This document shows positions 2,128-29,618 of a DNA stretch of 64,000 bases, one piece after another (position 1 is the first letter of the stretch; each line of letters begins with the position of its first letter). The DNA comes from Agelaius tricolor (lineage: Eukaryota > Chordata > Aves > Passeriformes > Icteridae), in NCBI GenBank assembly GCA_023055355.1, contig JALJCS010000034.1, forward strand, positions 5,532,001 through 5,596,000, given 5' to 3'. The notes below the pieces were generated by a model, which saw only the letters and a list, made by a program, of their open reading frames with translations, was not told where the DNA came from and did not search any database. Both the position numbers and the translations under genes were made by a program.

Positions 2128-3819
2128 CCAGTATTTTATGGGGCATAAAAGACAGAATAAGACGTAAGAAACCAATACAGGTTGCAGACATAAATATATG
2201 TATACATTCAGCTCAGTCAAGCTTTTTATAAGTTATTGTGAGAAATGCTGTTTAATATGTTTCAGCAGTCTGTGGGCTGCATTTGTAACAGTGGGATTTT
2301 CCTTGGGCTGTGCAATAGTTTAGACACATGCCACTTGTGTTTTATCAGTAACAAAAGCATCCTGTCTGCGAGATGAGCTTTATCAAACAATACATTTTCA
2401 AAAAGTCTAAATTACTGCCTTTGGAAATGAAGTGGATGCACATATTAACCATTGTTGTGTCCTCCATCCAAATGGAAAACGTGCTAGATGCATTCATTCA
2501 GGCAGCTGCCAAGACATGAGCGTGGTCTTAGTGCCTTATTAAAGCTGGAGTGTCTGAACAAAGTCCTCAGCTTGCATCACCGGAGAAGCAAATCCAGAAC
2601 ATTTAACAGTTTCTGGAAAGGAGAGCAGCATTCTTGTAGCCAGTGTGTCACCTCACAGTTCTTCCCAGGTGAACCTTATTTTTCCTGGAACAAAGGATGC
2701 AAGGCTTTGAGAGTTTCCAGCAAACCTGGGGCTGTGACCTTTCCTGGACTCTGCCTGCGCACGTCCTGCACGCTTGGGGTACGGATCTCGGGCTGACCAA
2801 GCTGCAGTGAGGGGGAACGTGGGACAGAGAGCAGTTGTTCCATTTAATATGTGTGACCAAGCATGCAGGAATATGTGACCAAAAATGAAGAGCACCAAAG
2901 GAAACTTGCAGCAAGTCCCAGAGCCATGCTCCGTGAGTTTGCGCAGTTCTGTATGCCCTTAGGAGGTCAGCCAGTGTACCCAAATTTACGCAATATTTGA
3001 GAAACTGGCAGGGTTGGATGTTGGGATTCTTTTTAAGCTCCTACATCTTAAGTGCAGAATTTGCACTGATCTCATTTTGGGATCATAGTAAGAGGTTTGA
3101 AATCCCGCATCTCATGATTCGGTAGAATTGTGAGGCATCATTATTAAGAGAAAAAGCCATAATATTCTTCCTTTTTCCCCTGGCTGTTCACAATTTTTAA
3201 AGCAGTTTGCTCAAGAAAGTACTACTTGAAAATTCTCACAAAATCACGCGCTTTGCAACTCTTCAGAAAGTTTTCTGAAATACCACAAAAGTTTCCTGCA
3301 AAATACCAATTAGCAGAAAAAGCAGATATGAAATGGGGCTCTTGCTCAAGCCCTGCCATGCTTTATGCATTCCTACTGTGTCGTAATAAAAACTGGATGC
3401 AATTTTCTTGGGCGAGGACAACATCTGTTCGCTCTGCTAAGCATTTTCCACACTTGCCTTGAAGAAGGAGAAAGAAATATTCTTTCTCTGGTTAAAATGT
3501 GTGTCATGTGCATGACCTATAGCTGGCTGCTCAGTAGGATTAGCCAGGAGTTGAATGGATGGCAGCTCAAAGATGCACGTTTTCTGCCAAAGTTTCTACA
3601 ATGTGATGTGGTTTAGCTCTGGCCAAATTTTTCATGCTAAATAATTAATGCCTTTTTAGTACAAAGCAATTATTTGGGGAAAAATATGCCCACCCCAGCT
3701 TTCTATTACACCAAAGCCACGTGTTACTGTAGCTGTGAGTGTACATCAGAGTGGTTATGTGTGCCTAGGAGTTATGCGGCACCATTTTAAAATTACACGT
3801 CATGTGTTCTTCTGAGCAG

Positions 3820-4081
3820 ATAAAAGGTGGGAAGGTGCACTACATATCTGATGCTGGAGTTGCTGGGAAAGTGGAAAGGAACATCCCTGAGGTGTATGCT
3901 GCAGATGGCCAGTGGCACTCGGTCCTCCTGGAGAAGAACGGCTCTGCCACCATCCTGTCGGTGGACAGGACCCACAGCAGGGACATTCTCCATGCCACCC
4001 AAGACTTCGGTGGCCTCAACGTCCTCACCATTTCTCTGGGAGGAATTCCATCCAGCCAGCCTTTCAAGAGCACAGCTGCAG
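3820..4081 (+). CDS. FAT4: FAT4 atypical cadherin, laminin-G exon (penultimate coding exon in window)
   Basis: This internal exon of 262 nt encodes about 87 residues, beginning IKGGKVHYISDAGVAGKVE and ending in GGIPSSQPFKSTAA. It aligns closely with the second laminin-G-like domain of vertebrate FAT4, for example VHY-SDAGVAGKVER, ADG-WH and QDFGGL-VLTISLGGIP. FAT4 is a giant atypical cadherin at the cell surface that pairs with DCHS1 in planar cell polarity and tissue-growth control. Boundaries were chosen from the acceptor (AG at 3818-3819) and the donor GCAG|gtaatt (gt at 4082). The exon ends one base into a glycine codon, which the next exon completes with GC at 6139-6140. No stop or frameshift is present in the exon. 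The same frame runs on past 4081 into intron, so the open frame alone overstates the coding region. Confidence 0.95.
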
Positions 4082-6138
4082 GTAATTTTTTTTTTCTCCC
4101 CAAGTACTGTAATTCTTTATTAGTTATTAGTGTACGTCCATCCTTTGCTAGAAAAAATGCAAATTGAATGAGTAAGGATTACAGATTTTGTTCCTTTAGT
4201 ACACACTGCAGGCTTCTTGTTTCCACAAGCAGACACTCCATCTGCAGGGCTTTTTTGAGACAAGGGAGTTGCTTGTCTGTACATCAACTGCTGTATTTTT
4301 GTTACCCCTATGGAGAAGAAAGGATGTATTCTTCACCTGAATCATAACCTGGAAAATCAAGGCAAATCTTTCATTTGAGCAAAAATGCAAAACAAAAACT
4401 TTGTAGGGATTTGGTAAGTACCGCAGGATTTACCCTGTTATTTATATGATAAAAATATTTTCTGCAACTCCAAGGTCCTGCTGCTTTATCCTGCTGTCAG
4501 ATTAAGAATGGGATTTATTTCTGAGCAAGGACAATAAGGAAACACTCTCTGACTGATGTCTAGCTGTTAAGGAGCAAATCAGTCTCCCTTAAGAGTTAAA
4601 GTAACTGTCTCAAACCCTGGCAAAAGAAGTAGATAACACATATTTGATATCATTTCCCAAGTGCTAGGTAAAGATGGAAGTGATTTTTAGCTGCAAAACA
4701 TGAGATTCTCCAGACAATACAGATGTATTTTTCATGTATTTCTATATTGAAAAATCTTCCTGGCTTCATGAATTGTGACCAGATAAAGTATTTTTGAGTG
4801 GAGTAAATTCACACTTTACACTTGTGCATTGTGAATATGTATGAAATGTGGTACAAAAGCTTGTGGATGCTGTGCTGACCTTTACCCTTTTTACATGTAT
4901 GTTTTATAAGCAGCATGTGCATGGAAAAAGCAGAGGCTTTAGGAAAGCTGGAACAAGGAAAATTGAGGACACTAACCTCTCACCACTGCCCAATGCTGTG
5001 GCAGACAAATTAGGAATGTCTGGCTTCCATTAAGCAGACACACAGTCCAAAATCCCTTATTCATATGATTTTATTTTATTTTAATATTGGATTACATTGG
5101 GTACAACATACCAAGGAATTTACAAGGCTCTGGTATAAAACTCTGCATGAACTCAGAGTCAAAAATATCTGCAGTGCTGTTCAAGGCAGACAACACACGA
5201 GGTGACAGGGCTGTGAAGTTGCTGTGTCCAGTAACATTTCCAAATCCAGGCAGATGTGACAAGTTGTTTATCACATCAGTACTACAAGGAACCACCATGC
5301 ATGAAGCAAGGTGATCATCACTTTTGCTTGTGCTCCCAACTGAACCTGAATCTTCAACCCTGAGGATTCTAAACCTTTAATAGCATCTCATACCACTGAA
5401 GTATATTTGCTGTTTCATGAGAGTGGTATCCATCTCTATGTTGGAAGCTCCAAGCAGAGATCACCGTAAGGTTGCACTACCTCAAAACCCTTCCAGAAAG
5501 GATTTATTCAGGGGAACACAGAGGATTATTAGGCTGGCAAAAGACTGGATTTTCCTGTGACCTCACTCAACCGCTGCACAGCCTTGGGATAATTCCATCT
5601 CCTGGGCTCTCACAGCACTAAAATTTGTTGTAGGGTAGCACTGCAACCAAAGTATGGGAAGTTTGGGAAAAGGCCCCTCAAGACTCAGAGAAACAAAAGG
5701 ATTGCCATGAATTTAGGGGACAAGAGGCTTAGTTGAAGCACGTTGGGCAAACTCAAGTAATGCTTGGTGCTAGCACAGCCAAGCCAGCTGCCCACGGGAT
5801 TCTCTGTGGGAAATTATAAGAAGTTTTAGAGATATGGGAGAATCAGGAGAGAAAAGCATTTCAGTATATTGAATATATTGAAATACATTGAATATACTGA
5901 ATATATTGAATATGCTATATTTCAGTCATCAGACATTGTATTTATTCAAACTCAATTTAAAGACATTAAGTGCTGTTAGAATGGATGTTTCCCTATGGTA
6001 ACCATGTGAATTCTTGGCTTATTTAGTGAACAGTGGAGTATGTACTGAGTATGTACAGTGAGTATGTACTGCGCTGTTGACCGTGAACGCTCAACATTCA
6101 GCTCCCAACAACTCTGTCCCTCTTTGTCCCTCTCTCAG
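4082..6138 (+). other. FAT4: FAT4 last intron
   Basis: This intron is bounded by GT at 4082 and AG at 6137-6138, with a pyrimidine-rich tract (ccctctttgtccctctctcag) before the acceptor. It holds no recognisable exon. Between about 5863 and 5930 there is an AT-rich short tandem repeat built on attgaatat. Just before the acceptor, at about 6037-6070, there is a small repeat of gagtatgtact. Confidence 0.85.
5863..5930. repeat. AT-rich short tandem repeat (attgaatat-type)
   Basis: Degenerate tandem copies of a roughly 10-bp unit (ttgaatatat / ttgaaataca / ttgaatatac) are visible within the last FAT4 intron. This is ordinary low-complexity sequence. Confidence 0.7.
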
Positions 6139-8012
6139 GCTTCAATGGCTGCATTTCCTACATCAAGTACGGCGGGGAGACCCTTCCCTTCTCCGGCAAG
6201 CACAGCCTGGCCACGCTCTCCAGAACAGACCCCTCGGTGAAGACGGGCTGCCGCGGCCCCGACGTGTGCGCCAGCAATCCCTGCTGGGGCGAGCTGATGT
6301 GCATCAACCGCTGGTTCGCCTACCAGTGCGTGCCCCCAGGGGCCTGTGCCTCCAGCCCCTGCCTCAACGGGGGCAGCTGCGAGCCGGGGCCCCACGCCGG
6401 CTTCACCTGCAGCTGCCCCGAGGCCTACGCGGGACGGACGTGCGAGACCGTGGTGGCCTGCCTGGGCGTGCTGTGTGCCCCCGGCCACGAGTGCAGGGCG
6501 GGTGTCAATGGTGGCCACGTGTGCCTGCCGTCCCCGCACCCTGCCGAGCTGTCCCTGCCGCTCTGGGCCGTGCCGGCCATCGTGGGCAGCTGCGCCACGG
6601 TCCTGGCGCTGCTGGTGCTCAGCCTCATCCTCTGCAACCAGTGCCGGGGAAAGAAGTCAAAAGGGCCGAAAGAGGAGAAGAAAACAAAGCAGAAGAAGAA
6701 GAAAGGGAGCGAGAACGTGGCGTTCGATGACCCTGACAACATCCCACCCTACGGTGATGACATGACTGTCAGGAAGCAGCCCGAGGGGAACCCAAAACCC
6801 GACATCATCGAAAGGGAAAACCCTTACCTCATCTACGACGAGACGGACATCCCGCACGCCACGGAGACCATCCCCAGCGCCCCGCTGGCCTCCCCCGAGC
6901 CCGAGATCGAGCACTACGACATCGACAACGCCAGCAGCATCGCCCCCTCCGACGCCGATATCATCCAGCACTACAAGCAGTTCCGCAGCCACACTCCCAA
7001 GTTCTCCATCCAGAGGCACAGCCCGCTGGGCTTCGCCCGGCAGTCCCCCATGCCCCTGGGAGCCAGCAGCCTGACCTACCAGCCTGCCTACGGGCAGGGC
7101 TTGAGGACAACATCCCTGAGCCACTCGGCGTGCCCCACTCCCAACCCCCTGTCTCGGCACAGCCCCGCACCCTTCTCCAAATCCTCGACGTTCTACAGGC
7201 ACAGCCCAGCCAGGGAGCTGCACCTCGCCATCAGGGAAGGGAGCCCGCTGGAGATGCATGGTGACGTTTGCCAGCCCGGCATCTTCAACTACGCCACTCG
7301 GCTGGGCAGGAGAAGCAAGAGCCCACAGACCATGGCGGGCCACAGCTCCCGCCCGGGAAGCCGCCTGAAGCAGCCCATCGGGCAGATCCCGCTGGAGACG
7401 TCTCCCCCGGTGGGGCTGTCCATCGAAGAGGTGGAGAGACTGAACACCCCCCGCCCCAGGAACCCCAGCATCTGCAGCGCGGACCACGGCCGCTCCTCTT
7501 CCGAGGAGGACTGCAGGAGGCCTCTGTCCCGGACCAGGAACCCGGCCGACGGCATTCCCGCGCCCGAGTCCTCCTCCGACAGCGACTCGCACGAGTCCTT
7601 CACCTGCTCCGAGATGGAGTACGACCGTGACAAGCCCGTGGCCTACACCTCCAGGATGCCCAAGTTGTCCCAGGTGAACGAGTCGGACGCAGATGACGAG
7701 GACAACTACGGCTCGAGGCTGAAGCCGCGGCGGTACCCGGGGCGGCGCGGCGAGGGCGGGCCCGTGGGGGCACAGGCAGCGGGCACCGCGCCCGGGGAGA
7801 GCTCCCTGCCCGGGAAGCTGGGCCAGCAGGCAGGAAGCTTCAACTGGGACAACCTCTTGAACTGGGGCCCGGGCTTTGGGCATTATGTGGATGTTTTCAA
7901 AGATTTGGCATCGCTTCCTGAAAAAACAGCAGCAGCAGCAGCGAGTGAAGACAGCAAAGGTGGTACGGCCAAGGCTGTTTCCAAGGAGGGGGAAGCCGAA
8001 CAGTATGTATAG
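6139..8012 (+). CDS. FAT4: FAT4 terminal coding exon: laminin-G end, EGF-like, transmembrane and cytoplasmic tail
   Basis: The exon is 1874 nt and ends in TAG at 8010-8012. The order of parts is as follows. First comes the last laminin-G strand (FNGCISYIKYGGETLPFSG). Next are cysteine-rich EGF-like modules (for example CASSPCLNGGSCEPG and CSCPEAYAGRTCE, about 6260-6530). A single transmembrane helix, AVPAIVGSCATVLALLVLSL, falls at about 6558-6635, with NQCRGKK as the basic stop-transfer. About 460 cytoplasmic residues follow. The tail is strongly conserved with vertebrate FAT4 (NVAFDDPDNIPPYGDDMTV, FSIQRHSPLGFARQSPMP, NWDNLLNWGPGFGHYVDVF) and ends EAEQYV. The protein is the receptor of the Fat-Dachsous system; the tail carries the intracellular signalling regions. 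The acceptor at 6137-6138 restores the split Gly codon. The exon is much GC-richer than its surroundings. One oddity is an in-frame run of alanines near the end (7922-7942). Confidence 0.97.
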
Positions 8013-10570: not shown

Positions 10571-10797
10571 TGTTGCCACCGCTTGGGGCGCGGCGTCCTG
10601 GGTCGAGGACGGTTCAGTGGCGGTGCCTCTGCCACACGGGCCAAGCACATGCACACACCATGTGGTGGACAGTATCTGGTATTTATTAATGATTAGGGAG
10701 GGTCTTTTATAACAGGGGGTAACGGTCAGTAACAATAAAAGGGGAGGGGTTCTGCATAACATCGTGATATCTCGAAACCTCGCGATATCTGCCCACA
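10571..10797 (-). repeat. 3' LTR, complete, 227 bp
   Basis: On the minus strand it begins TGTGGGCAGATATCGCGAGG and ends GGTGGCAACA. A TATAAAAG box is at about 10704-10711 and an AATAAA poly(A) signal at 10682-10687, only about 20 bases apart, so the R region is short. U3 contains two copies of a TCGCGATATCT-type motif. The upstream neighbour is a polypurine tract, as expected for a 3' LTR. Homology to the other LTR is clear over U3-R; the last ~75 bases (U5) have no counterpart at the other end of the element. Confidence 0.85.
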
Positions 10798-10813
10798 TTT
10801 CCCCCCCCCTTTT
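10798..10813 (-). other. polypurine tract (plus-strand primer site)
   Basis: The minus strand reads AAAAGGGGGGGGGAAA directly before the TG of the 3' LTR. This is the standard position and composition of a retroviral plus-strand primer, and it fixes the orientation of the element. Confidence 0.85.
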
Positions 10814-11680
10814 ATGACCAGCTAAAAACATAAAACAAAACTGACAGGTAGGAAACGTGTGTAACTGGCAAAATGCAATTAACTTGACCAATATAACTGC
10901 AATAAACTTGTAACTGCAAATGTTTAACAACGAAAAGCTAACTATCTCTAACTGTTTTTTTCTAAAAAAAACAACACAAACTTGTTTAAAATGTAAGGCG
11001 ATCAGTCATGGGGGCTGACTGAACCATGACTTTGAATATCTTTGTAGGACCTCCTCAGTTTTTTAGTTGACCTCCTAGGACCGAATTATTCTCCCAGAGT
11101 CTGCGACCTGTTTGATCTTAAAACTAGAGAGGATTTGGAGAGTCCATGTCTTATGTTCCCTCCAAATCGCCCTTTGATCCTTTGACACAGGGAAAAACTC
11201 TGGGTTACTTGGCATTCCATCCAAGTAGAGCCAGAACCTGGCCAGAGCTCGAACTCTACTTGCTGGATACCTCTTAACATTTTTGCTGAGCTGTTTTTCC
11301 CCCCCCGTCCTTCTCTGTGCCAGCCGCTCCTTTAGTTTGGTCACTGAGTTCTTTCACGACCCTGGTATGGTCTGCCATCGGGCTGCTTGATGATTCATTG
11401 CAGCCTTTAGGAAGTGGGGTATACGGGCCGCGGGGGTGTCTGAGGATTCAGTCCTGCAAAACAAACTTTACAAATTTCATTAGTTTTTGCCCTGAAGGTC
11501 TGGTTTTATCGACTTAAGTGGGCACCTTTTGATTTTACTATTTTTCTTGATGGCTGCGTACCCTTGCCCTGTGAGTACCAGTCTCCAACCCTGTTCCCAT
11601 TCCCCTAGTTCATTTTTAATTATGTCCTGTGGGCCTTCCTCAAGTGCTCGGGTGGCCCAGTGTCACAATGTTAAGGTGTT
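10814..11680 (-). pseudogene. degenerate retroviral 3' internal region (possible integrase C-terminus, then unassigned)
   Basis: Immediately after the cyclin breakpoint there is a short open stretch (about 11640-11475) with EWEQGWRLVLTGQGYAAI and a following KSIKPDL. This resembles the SH3-like C-terminal part of a retroviral integrase or an equivalent pol end; that reading is inference and moderate to weak. After its stop come short frames of up to 89 codons (11075-11344) with no recognisable function. They could be remnants of an env or accessory region. Nothing here looks intact, and the distance to the polypurine tract (under 0.9 kb) is too short for a full env. Confidence 0.55.
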
Positions 11681-12870
11681 CTTCTGGCCAGAAAGATCTG
11701 TTCACTGTATAGTTTGCCAAACAGTAGGCTGCTGCAGCAATTTGTGAAGGAAGGTACTCCAGAAGAGGATCAACTTGAAGGAGACTCAGCTCTGCAAGAT
11801 ACCTTGCAAGGTTCTCTGTCCTCATACAGATTCCACATCTCTGAATATACTGAAGGAGGAACTGGTTGATGGTTGGGGCTGTTAGGTCAAAACCCAGCAC
11901 TTTGAGAAGCAAGTGTTCCATTCTTAGCAGCTGCTCCTTTGTGTAGGTATCATCTGTTATATAGACAAATTCCTCCACATCTGGTGGGTAGATCTCTTCA
12001 TACTTCGCAGCCAGAAGAATTGCTGCTGTTCCCACAAGCTGTAACTTCCCTCTGAGAGCAGACATGCAGGAAAGAAACCTCTCCAGGAAGTTCACTGCCA
12101 AGTACAAAGTCTCTGTCCGAAGTTTATACTCTTCCCCTACTTACTCCAACCAGTCTACCAGGATAGCACGCATTCCTGTTGTGATATCTGGCTGTTTCTT
12201 CATGTAGTAGGGCTTGGGCCTAAATCTTACTTCTGCCTCTTGGAGGTACTGATAAATGTCTTCTGCATACTCTCCCACAGCCAGAGTTACAACATCTTCC
12301 ACTACCATAGGAGAGCCTGAATTCAGATCCAGCCGCGATGATTACTGGATGTCATTGCACTGGTACCCAGTTCACAGTGGCTTAATTCCAGCTCTTCAGA
12401 CACTTGGCAGCTGTAGTCTTCTTTATCTTCTGAATCGTCTATGTAGATAGCAAAACCTTGCTTTGATGCAGTTGGGCACTTCATCTTTTCTACATGAAGT
12501 GACGGTGTTTTCAAAGCCAGAGCATCGCTTGATAACAGCAGCACCCTGGCCGCCGGGCCGCTGCTGCTGCCCGTTGTCTGTCAGCACCCCCAGCACGGCC
12601 CAGCCGCCGCTGCTGCGGAGGGCGGCGGGGCAGGACTCCCGCCGCCCCGCACGGCTCTTCTCTCCGGTGCGATGCATCGCCCCGACGTCGGTACCGCGCT
12701 GCCCGGCTCTGCTCGCCACCAGCCCAGGGAAGGGTCCGGCCGCCCTGCGCCGCCCAGGCTGCCCGCCGGCCCTGTGTAGGCGCGGCCGCTGGAGGCGGCG
12801 GTTGTTGGCCGCGGCCGGTTGGAAGCCCGGCGGCTCAACCCGCGGCGCGCCGCCCCGCCCCGCCAGCCCC
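11681..12870 (-). pseudogene. CCNA1: cyclin A1 processed copy, truncated and frame-broken
   Basis: This spliced copy has no introns. A GC-rich leader (12870 to about 12678) precedes an ATG at 12677-12675 (MHRTGEKSRAG) followed by the A1-type segment AVLGVLTDNGQ and a GQG motif. The frame then shifts near 12460 into QGFAIYIDDSEDKEDYSC and again near 12340 into [29 protein letters not shown] stop sits at 12143-12141, where LVEVGEEYK should be (it reads WLE-stop-VGEEYK). From there the cyclin box is open to TVNRSFWPE, near 11685. Residues such as [39 protein letters not shown] and [12 protein letters not shown] match CCNA1 rather than CCNA2. The C-terminal part of the second cyclin fold is missing, replaced by retroviral sequence. 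Cyclin A1 normally activates CDK2 in germ cells; this copy cannot make a full cyclin. Confidence 0.9.
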
Positions 12871-13045
12871 AATGCATGCACCAATGTGGTGGACAGTACC
12901 TGGCCTTTATTAACGGTTAGGCAGGGTCATCTATAACGGGGGATAACGGTCAGTAATGGTAAAAGGAGAGGGGTTCCGCCTGAGCGTAACATCGCGATAT
13001 CTTGGGACCTCGCGATATCTCGAGACCTCGAGCTATCTCCCCTCA
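12871..13045 (-). repeat. 5' LTR, U3-R only, fused to the CCNA1 leader
   Basis: It begins TGAGGGGAGATAGCTCGAGG on the minus strand and aligns with the 3' LTR through the AATAAA signal (12906-12911) and the CTGTCCACCACAT block, then breaks at about 12871-12874 into the CCNA1 leader. The TATA region reads TATAGATG instead of TATAAAAG. U3 carries three, not two, copies of the TCGCGATATCT-type repeat. U5 and the primer-binding site are absent. By eye there are about nine differences over the ~57 aligned bases around the TATA and R region, high for two LTRs of one insertion. Confidence 0.8.
12955..13045 (-). promoter_or_regulatory. tandem palindromic U3 repeat (TCGCGATATCT-type), three copies
   Basis: On the plus strand the units read atcgcgatatcttgggacc, tcgcgatatctcgagacc and tcgagctatctccc, about 18 bp apart. 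The corresponding part of the 3' LTR (10761-10797) has two. Direct repeats in U3 commonly act as enhancer units. The CpG-containing TCGCGA core is unusual in this AT-rich neighbourhood. A regulatory role is inferred from position only. Confidence 0.5.
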
Positions 13046-29187: not shown

Positions 29188-29270
29188 TGGTGTAGAATGT
29201 AATCTTATCCCCCAACGAGTTGCAGCTGAACCAATTACTAAAGATCAGGAGCAGGTGTGATGTTAACAGG
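29188..29270. promoter_or_regulatory. unique sequence upstream of the 58-bp array
   Basis: This reads tgtagaatgtaatcttatcc, then ...gctgaaccaattactaaag..., then gcaggtgtgatgttaacagg. It contains a CCAAT (29231-29235) and a diverged, partial relative of the following repeat unit. It may be the start of a larger repeated element such as an LTR, but I cannot define a matching terminal end. Confidence 0.35.
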
Positions 29271-29618
29271 CCACACCTGTAACCAATAAGAGCAGGGGTA
29301 TAAAAGAGTGGATTGGTGGGAACTGGAGCCACACCTGTAGCCAATAAGAGCAGTGGCATAAAAGAGTGGATTGGTGGGCTCTGGAGCCACACCTGTAGCC
29401 AATAAGAGCAGTGGCATAAAAGAGTGGATTGGTGGGCTCTGGAGCCACACCTGTAGCCAATAAGAGCAGTGGTATAAAAGAGTGGATTGGTGGGAGCTGG
29501 AGCCACACCTGTAGCCAATAAGAGCAGTGGTATAAAAGAGTGGATTGGTGGGAACTGGAGCCACACCTGTAGCCAATAAGAGCAGTGGTATAAAACAGTG
29601 GATTGGTGGGATCTGGAG
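29271..29618. repeat. 58-bp tandem repeat, six copies, promoter-like unit
   Basis: Copies start at 29271, 29329, 29387, 29445, 29503 and 29561, exactly 58 bp apart, and are nearly identical. Each unit contains CCACACCTG, then CCAATAAGAG, then TATAAAAG (copies 1, 4 and 5; copy 6 is TATAAAAC) or CATAAAAG (copies 2 and 3), then GTGGATTGGTGGG, which holds an inverted CCAAT. With this period the ATTGG of one unit lies about 45 bp upstream of the next unit's TATA box, i.e. near -75 if TATA is near -30. Because 58 is not a multiple of three and the reverse strand has no stop, the minus strand is open in all three frames across the array. That explains a 165-codon frame here which I do not regard as a gene. 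Confidence 0.95.

Follow-up and report, generated by a model that had tools for sequence, protein, structure and literature searches.

The window analyzed here, 64,000 nucleotides of Agelaius tricolor (contig JALJCS010000034.1 of assembly GCA_023055355.1, positions 5,532,001 to 5,596,000), holds on its minus strand, running from 13045 to 10571, an element in which two long terminal repeats (LTRs) of one orientation enclose a truncated, intronless copy of the cyclin A1 gene (CCNA1) and a stretch of retroviral sequence. An initial annotation had read this interval as the fossil capture of a cell-cycle activator by an avian endogenous retrovirus (ERV), and all of the parts that it listed are present within 10571-13045. 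The two LTRs are related, as it had proposed: 113 of 135 sites are equal in the U3-R alignment (16 transitions and 6 transversions, Kimura two-parameter (K2P) distance 0.19), an ungapped shared block of 96 nt is 84% identical and the local alignment score of 156 compares with a maximum of 28 over 200 letter shuffles. The polypurine tract was also found where expected, directly ahead of the 3' LTR (AAAAGGGGGGGGGAAA). With regard to completeness, the 3' LTR is indeed a full one of 227 nt, and the description of the 5' LTR has to be refined to U3 and R only.

The nearest named proteins to the cyclin part, among the matches listed, are bird cyclin-A1 or cyclin-A1-like, and its Pfam domains are Cyclin_N2, Cyclin_N and a partial Cyclin_C (positions 1-71 of 119). 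CCNA2 structures were matched first, but an origin from CCNA2 was rejected because the closest proteins are avian cyclin-A1 and the N-terminal part fits CCNA1, which is chiefly a germ-cell cyclin. With the Haemorhous CCNA1 protein as a tblastn query, residues 1-350 of 409 were matched at 12677-11682; the start codon lies at 12677 and the frame breaks off at FWPE (11682), inside the second cyclin box. Two frameshifts and one in-frame stop interrupt the copy, which is dead as a cyclin gene, a pseudogene. Upstream of the ATG the sequence is rich in GC (0.79 over 12540-12872, with an observed/expected CpG ratio of 0.92). A Turdus CCNA1 model aligns with 15 codons of this upstream sequence, GTDVGA being common to both, which argues that at least part of the GC-rich stretch is CCNA1 5' sequence.

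That the copy is intronless, another claim of the initial annotation, is supported at one predicted exon border close to the point where CCNA1 is truncated within its coding sequence (CDS). In at least five gene models of other species (P0197, P0204, P0205, P0181 and P0206, among 13 listed) the sequence after ...NRSFW, or an equivalent of it, goes on as VR..., which looks like read-through into an intron at a GT splice donor. The window is continuous at the same border (TTCTGG/CCAGAA). Our reasoning is that an unbroken FW/PE border points to spliced RNA, and the captured source was very probably a spliced CCNA1 RNA. The 3' breakpoint falls 6 nt into the exon after the predicted border. For this reason a 3' junction made by splicing was set aside, although a viral splice acceptor keeps some residual chance.

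Beyond the breakpoint the sequence is retroviral, again in keeping with the earlier claim: 60 codons at 11662-11483 match the C-terminal domain of the Rous sarcoma virus (RSV) integrase (E 7.6e-11). In a search with this remnant 5 of 7 hits were integrases, the best of them named as RSV, while the last two hits were weak and unrelated; we take the other integrase hits to be RSV as well. No poly(A) occurs at the CCNA1/retroviral junction, the nearest run of five A being 65 nt off and in retroviral sequence. No env was recognized in the ~670 nt after the integrase remnant, where the open reading frame (ORF) pieces tried gave no Pfam match above the cut-off. LTR-element sequence flanks CCNA1 on both sides in a single orientation.

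The same CCNA1/integrase join recurs elsewhere, where all of our data come from predicted proteins (gene models). The top two hits in a search with the cyclin part were Molothrus ater 'cyclin-A1-like' proteins, P0001 and P0002, which cover 99% of the query as compared with at most 95%, and mostly at most 93%, for the other hits listed (the best 120 of 2348). Both cowbird models run from the CCNA1 start, through a first cyclin box that is complete and a second that is cut short, across the junction seen in the window and into retroviral sequence. EHLNIV follows FWPE in 3 of 206 fetched proteins, namely P0001, P0002 and P0100 (Agelaius phoeniceus), and when the tail of P0001 was used as the query these three were the only ones to cover it whole among 120 listed of 122 matches. 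P0002 goes on as RGRPTSHD, which resembles GRPTGHN of the window's retroviral sequence in the shifted (next) frame. A search for shorter proteins (18 matches) also found P0195 of M. ater, which is annotated as 'CCNA1 protein, partial'. Of 103 proteins that contain the FWPE motif it alone terminates exactly there, and it may be a further copy, although the model does not reach across the junction.

P0001 is on a contig of 4.98 Mb and P0002 on one of 116 Mb, and with 88% identity the two are too different to be alleles. The initial annotation had suggested that finding the junction at more than one locus would mean that the chimera itself had replicated. At the protein level the junction does occur in two species and on two M. 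ater contigs, which argues that the CCNA1/integrase join is one unit and not a retrocopy that happens to lie beside an LTR.

Further evidence points to a single origin of these copies. P0001 and P0002 share with the window a gap of 12 codons, in a region that the P0100 model lacks altogether; pattern scoring of the 206 proteins assigned 57 to the long form and only P0001 and P0002 to the short form, the rest being unscored. SALRG has A in all four chimeras and V in the five passerine parents compared. In a 16-row tree the four chimeras form a clade inside passerine CCNA1 (support 98/97), within which P0001 and P0100 pair (98/89). After the junction and deletion region had been cut, the chimeras grouped with Haemorhous, apart from Lonchura, at 86/84, a fork below the level that the tree program stars. 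Taken together, the shared junction, the shared deletion and the clade suggest that there was probably one capture, in the Haemorhous-icterid lineage, followed by multiplication. Judged by the position of the chimera in the tree, the host of the window would probably be an icterid or a species close to that family.

A separate observation on the cyclin concerns an RxxL motif (GGRAVLGVL in Haemorhous; 12677-12590 in the window) that is presumably destruction-box-like. Its arginine is W in the window, P0001 and P0100 and R in P0002, and the change may predate the separation of the three copies that carry it.

We favor, and consider highly likely, a history in which an alpharetrovirus-like songbird ERV captured a spliced CCNA1 mRNA and the product then multiplied by means of retroviral machinery; the window element would be a defunct member of a retroelement family that is non-autonomous. 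It is the recurrence of the junction, in particular, that supports the earlier reading of a fossil capture by an avian ERV.

How the 5' end arose is a separate matter. The 5' LTR begins at TG, that is, with a clean LTR end, and its similarity to the 3' LTR runs to CACCACA at 12885 and fades inside the next 16 nt (12884-12869). In both LTRs AATAAA lies ~20 nt ahead of this break point, and in the 3' LTR a GT-rich stretch follows beyond it; from this spacing and the GT-rich stretch we infer that the 5' LTR breaks at or just past the poly(A) site, i.e. at the R/U5 border. No packaging leader was found between the 5' LTR and CCNA1 in this copy, the LTR joining the 5' untranslated region (5'UTR)-like stretch directly. 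None of eight primer-binding-site 18-mers matched 12600-12900 better than shuffles, and the Pfam scan of ORF pieces of this copy gave no gag 5' of the cyclin. As an observation on the LTRs themselves, 18-bp tandem units (TCGCGATATCTCGAGACC) occupy 12992-13039 of the 5' LTR. The 3' LTR has one unit fewer; relative to it the 5' LTR carries the extra 18-nt unit and 6 further nt.

The LTRs also differ more than the cyclin would predict. At non-CpG sites 16 of 115 differ, besides gaps, where ~2.9 would be expected from the cyclin frame, an expectation based on the 9 of 324 comparable codons in which the window copy alone differs (2 of the 9 lie beside a frameshift gap). If these private codon changes are taken as neutral, as the test does, the comparison of rates gives p 2.8e-5, or p 0.025 when all 25 differences from Haemorhous are counted; aligning the pair by hand so that the two TG ends match up (18 of 119 sites differing) gives 5.6e-6 and 0.011. 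This excess indicates that the LTRs were either unlike already at insertion or have had separate histories. Dating by LTR divergence (K2P 0.19) was considered unusable, the cyclin frame being far less diverged, and LTR divergence may not date insertions of such elements in general. LTRs that are unequal, in a unit with no clean target duplication, fit any of three origins: a jump between the R regions of two RNAs, recombination between elements, or a separate 5' fragment.

We give close to an even chance to the first of these, in which a jump to R created the 5' end of the element. During minus-strand synthesis, reverse transcriptase would first copy U5-R, U3, the polypurine tract and the last part of pol. 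Inside the integrase region it would switch templates onto a CCNA1 mRNA, which it would copy as far as the 5' end, and a jump to a different viral RNA, at the 3' end of its R, would then allow R-U3 to be copied. The step from CCNA1 to R would be analogous to the first strand transfer. If the plus strand were then made from the upstream polypurine tract, the outcome would be U3-R-CCNA1-integrase-polypurine tract-U3-R-U5, a product that could be integrated without a primer-binding site of its own, whose two LTRs would come from two RNAs and which would match the map of the element in the window. For later copies, a helper retrovirus would supply the enzymes. It is conceivable, though we think it rather unlikely, that the family multiplied while having neither a primer-binding site nor a packaging leader of its own: an RNA that has R at each end and includes a polypurine tract would receive U5-R from helper strong-stop DNA, and every round would include a second R-to-R jump to restore the 5' U3. 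Were this true, the LTRs of one copy need not match at insertion.

Almost as well placed, if still short of an even chance, is a history in which the family arose as we favor from a founder whose 5' LTR was complete and which also had a primer-binding site and a leader, and in which the 5' end seen in the window is secondary. It would have come about either by a deletion from U5 to the leader, in this copy or its sublineage, or by recombination between elements. Unequal LTRs without a clean target duplication are what such recombination would be expected to leave, and an identical map results if a simple deletion removes everything between R/U5 and the CCNA1 5'UTR. Set against this is the place of the break, at most 16 nt beyond the predicted poly(A) site, which the R-jump predicts and which a random deletion would hit only occasionally. 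The possibility that the 5' LTR is a separate LTR-fragment insertion, with a 5'-truncated chimera landing in or beside it or later rearranged, strikes us as unlikely: the pair may be too different for one insertion, and a clean target duplication is missing here as well, but the LTR shares family and orientation with the rest, starts at TG and joins the CCNA1 5'UTR-like stretch directly.

More doubtful still is transduction of the oncogene type, in which a provirus at CCNA1 gave a read-through RNA that was packaged and recombined, and the resulting acutely transforming virus became fixed in the germ line. In favor of it, cyclin A1 activates the cell cycle, and viral oncogene (v-onc) viruses can have their 3' breakpoint inside pol. 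However, the hallmarks of v-onc viruses, a packaging signal, a primer site and usually gag lying 5' of the host gene, were not found in this copy, and its captured part starts in sequence like an mRNA 5'UTR with no fusion to gag. An ordinary CCNA1 retrocopy made by a long interspersed nuclear element (LINE), with unrelated LTRs alongside by chance, would account for the missing introns but is hardly credible, being truncated at its 3' end within the CDS, lacking poly(A) at the junction and, above all, being contradicted by the recurrence of the junction into integrase in other proteins.

Several points weigh against the capture and multiplication that we favor, or against parts of it. The 5' LTR is linked to the unit solely through position, orientation and family; no clean target-site duplication was found around the whole unit (best 3 of 4 positions, and 3 of 6 at six), so that the 5' LTR belongs to the same unit as the remainder of the element only tentatively. 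The R/U5 border and the extent of the CCNA1 5'UTR are both tentative too, and the neutrality assumed in the LTR rate test is a weakness of that comparison. A skeptic might also point to the 6-mer ACATTG, found close to each end of the cyclin piece (at 12887 and 11671), as the trace of a separate insertion or of a LINE retrocopy. Some 6-mer is shared in this way in 30% of 2000 shuffles, and we take the match as chance. The initial annotation had named a poly(A) tail or separate duplications around the cyclin piece as signs of independent insertions; there is no poly(A) at the junction and the shared 6-mer is at chance level, while the lack of a clean target duplication means that the 5' LTR may still have been inserted independently.

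With regard to the other loci, these are known as proteins only, so that their LTRs, flanks and 5' junctions are outside view, and gene models may splice around damage (as in P0100, which is without a central part). P0001 and P0100 may be one orthologous insertion common to two species, and segmental duplication could be the source of some copies. Once the junction tail and the 12-codon region are cut out, the chimera clade has moderate support of 85/74, also below the starred level. Certain residues conflict with one another: IYQYLQ is shared by the window and P0002, MCAIL by P0001 and P0002, and WLE by the window and P0001, while the W of GGWAVLG, FLE and the E of EYLP are common to the window, P0001 and P0100. 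This suggests either recombination between copies or chance and repeated changes.

Table 1. Parts of the CCNA1-carrying element, in order from its 5' end
Feature	Positions	Strand	Basis or remark
5' LTR, U3 and R only (TG...CACCACA)	12885..13045	-	alignment to 3' LTR
Putative R end of 5' LTR			AATAAA 12911-12906 plus ~20 nt
Junction stretch TTGGTGCATGCATTGG of ambiguous origin (U5 or CCNA1 5' end), up to 16 nt	12869..12884	-	
Putative CCNA1 5'UTR-like GC-rich stretch	12678..12868	-	Turdus CCNA1 model, GC content
CCNA1 frame piece 1, from ATG	12465..12677	-	tblastn
CCNA1 frame piece 2, past first frameshift	12368..12469	-	tblastn
CCNA1 frame piece 3, past second frameshift, terminates at FWPE within CDS	11682..12341	-	
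Site of the 12 missing parental codons (DTSFQSQPEDHM)	12299..12300	-	also absent in P0001 and P0002
In-frame stop in CCNA1 piece 3	12143-12141	-	
3' junction, CCNA1/retroviral sequence	11681..11682	-	also present in proteins of M. ater (two) and A. phoeniceus (one)
RSV-like integrase C-terminal domain remnant, 60 codons	11483..11662	-	frame differs from CCNA1
Unclassified sequence (~670 nt), taken as retroviral 3' region	10814..11482	-	
Polypurine tract AAAAGGGGGGGGGAAA	10798..10813	-	directly 5' of 3' LTR
Complete 3' LTR, 227 nt (TGTGGG...CAACA)	10571..10797	-	
Signals of 3' LTR	TATA-like 10712-10705; AATAAA 10687-10682; R end predicted at 10661, U5 beyond it	-	

Elsewhere in the window, ORFs at 3769-8012 on the plus strand that encode domains of the Laminin G (3772-4164) and EGF (6090-8009) types, as well as a long tail, resemble the end of a large cadherin-type gene, which we take to be FAT4-like. 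They end ~2.6 kb from the element, which lies downstream and antisense. A six-copy array of a 58-bp tandem unit with 96% matches occupies 29270-29618. Rfam and tRNA scans of the window gave no match, and scans of viral contigs with the LTR pattern, P0001 and the integrase piece found no relative of the element.

The three 'cyclin-A1-like' proteins of the cowbird and the red-winged blackbird are retroelement chimeras, which is a warning for annotation. More broadly, the element adds a core cell-cycle gene to the host genes captured by ERVs and offers a natural case of how retroviruses acquire mRNAs, in a bird lineage young enough that the parent gene, the other copies and the order of species should be readable. 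A 5' LTR without U5 and an unequal LTR pair, in turn, make a specific model of template switching testable by sequence alone. The statement in the initial annotation that it knew of no described avian element with cyclin A1 agrees with the open-licence PMC literature, in which none was found among the matches listed.

Rous sarcoma virus and other v-onc viruses carry captured growth-control genes, and the songbird element resembles them in combining such a gene with an alpharetrovirus-like integrase. In contrast to them, it gives no sign of an infectious or transforming virus, and a packaging leader and gag were not found in the songbird copy. Alpharetrovirus-related ERVs are described in the relevant part of PMC4272516 as widespread yet low in copy number in birds, with an expansion of ERVs in three oscines.

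There is precedent for ERV lineages that carry a host mRNA, although the pertinent passages of PMC4299795 describe the capture of host genes by ERVs as uncommon. According to the same passages, the crocodilian elements CrocERV29 and CrocERV31 carry KIT-ligand and nectin3, respectively, and, like the songbird element, each is an ERV lineage with a captured host mRNA, several genomic copies and shared indels; in CrocERV31 nectin3 stands in place of env (PMC4299795). They differ from the songbird element in the host gene and in the virus group. In CrocERV29 KIT-ligand lies between pol and env without major loss (PMC4299795), whereas the songbird copy retains only the integrase C-terminus of pol. 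LTR-mediated retroposition, in which template switching between the RNA of an LTR element and a host mRNA gives chimeras, likewise produces chimeric retrocopies with LTRs and is reported in chicken among others, as summarized in part of a review (PMC5408686, on Tan et al.). Compared with those retrocopies, the songbird chimera is found in several predicted proteins of two icterids and has a 5' LTR that ends near R/U5. Finally, the rv-cyclin of walleye dermal sarcoma virus (WDSV) is also a cyclin carried by a retrovirus; the section of PMC3185748 that deals with it gives less than 20% identity to host cyclins and likens it to cyclin C. The songbird element, by comparison, carries a recent and traceable copy of the bird's own CCNA1.

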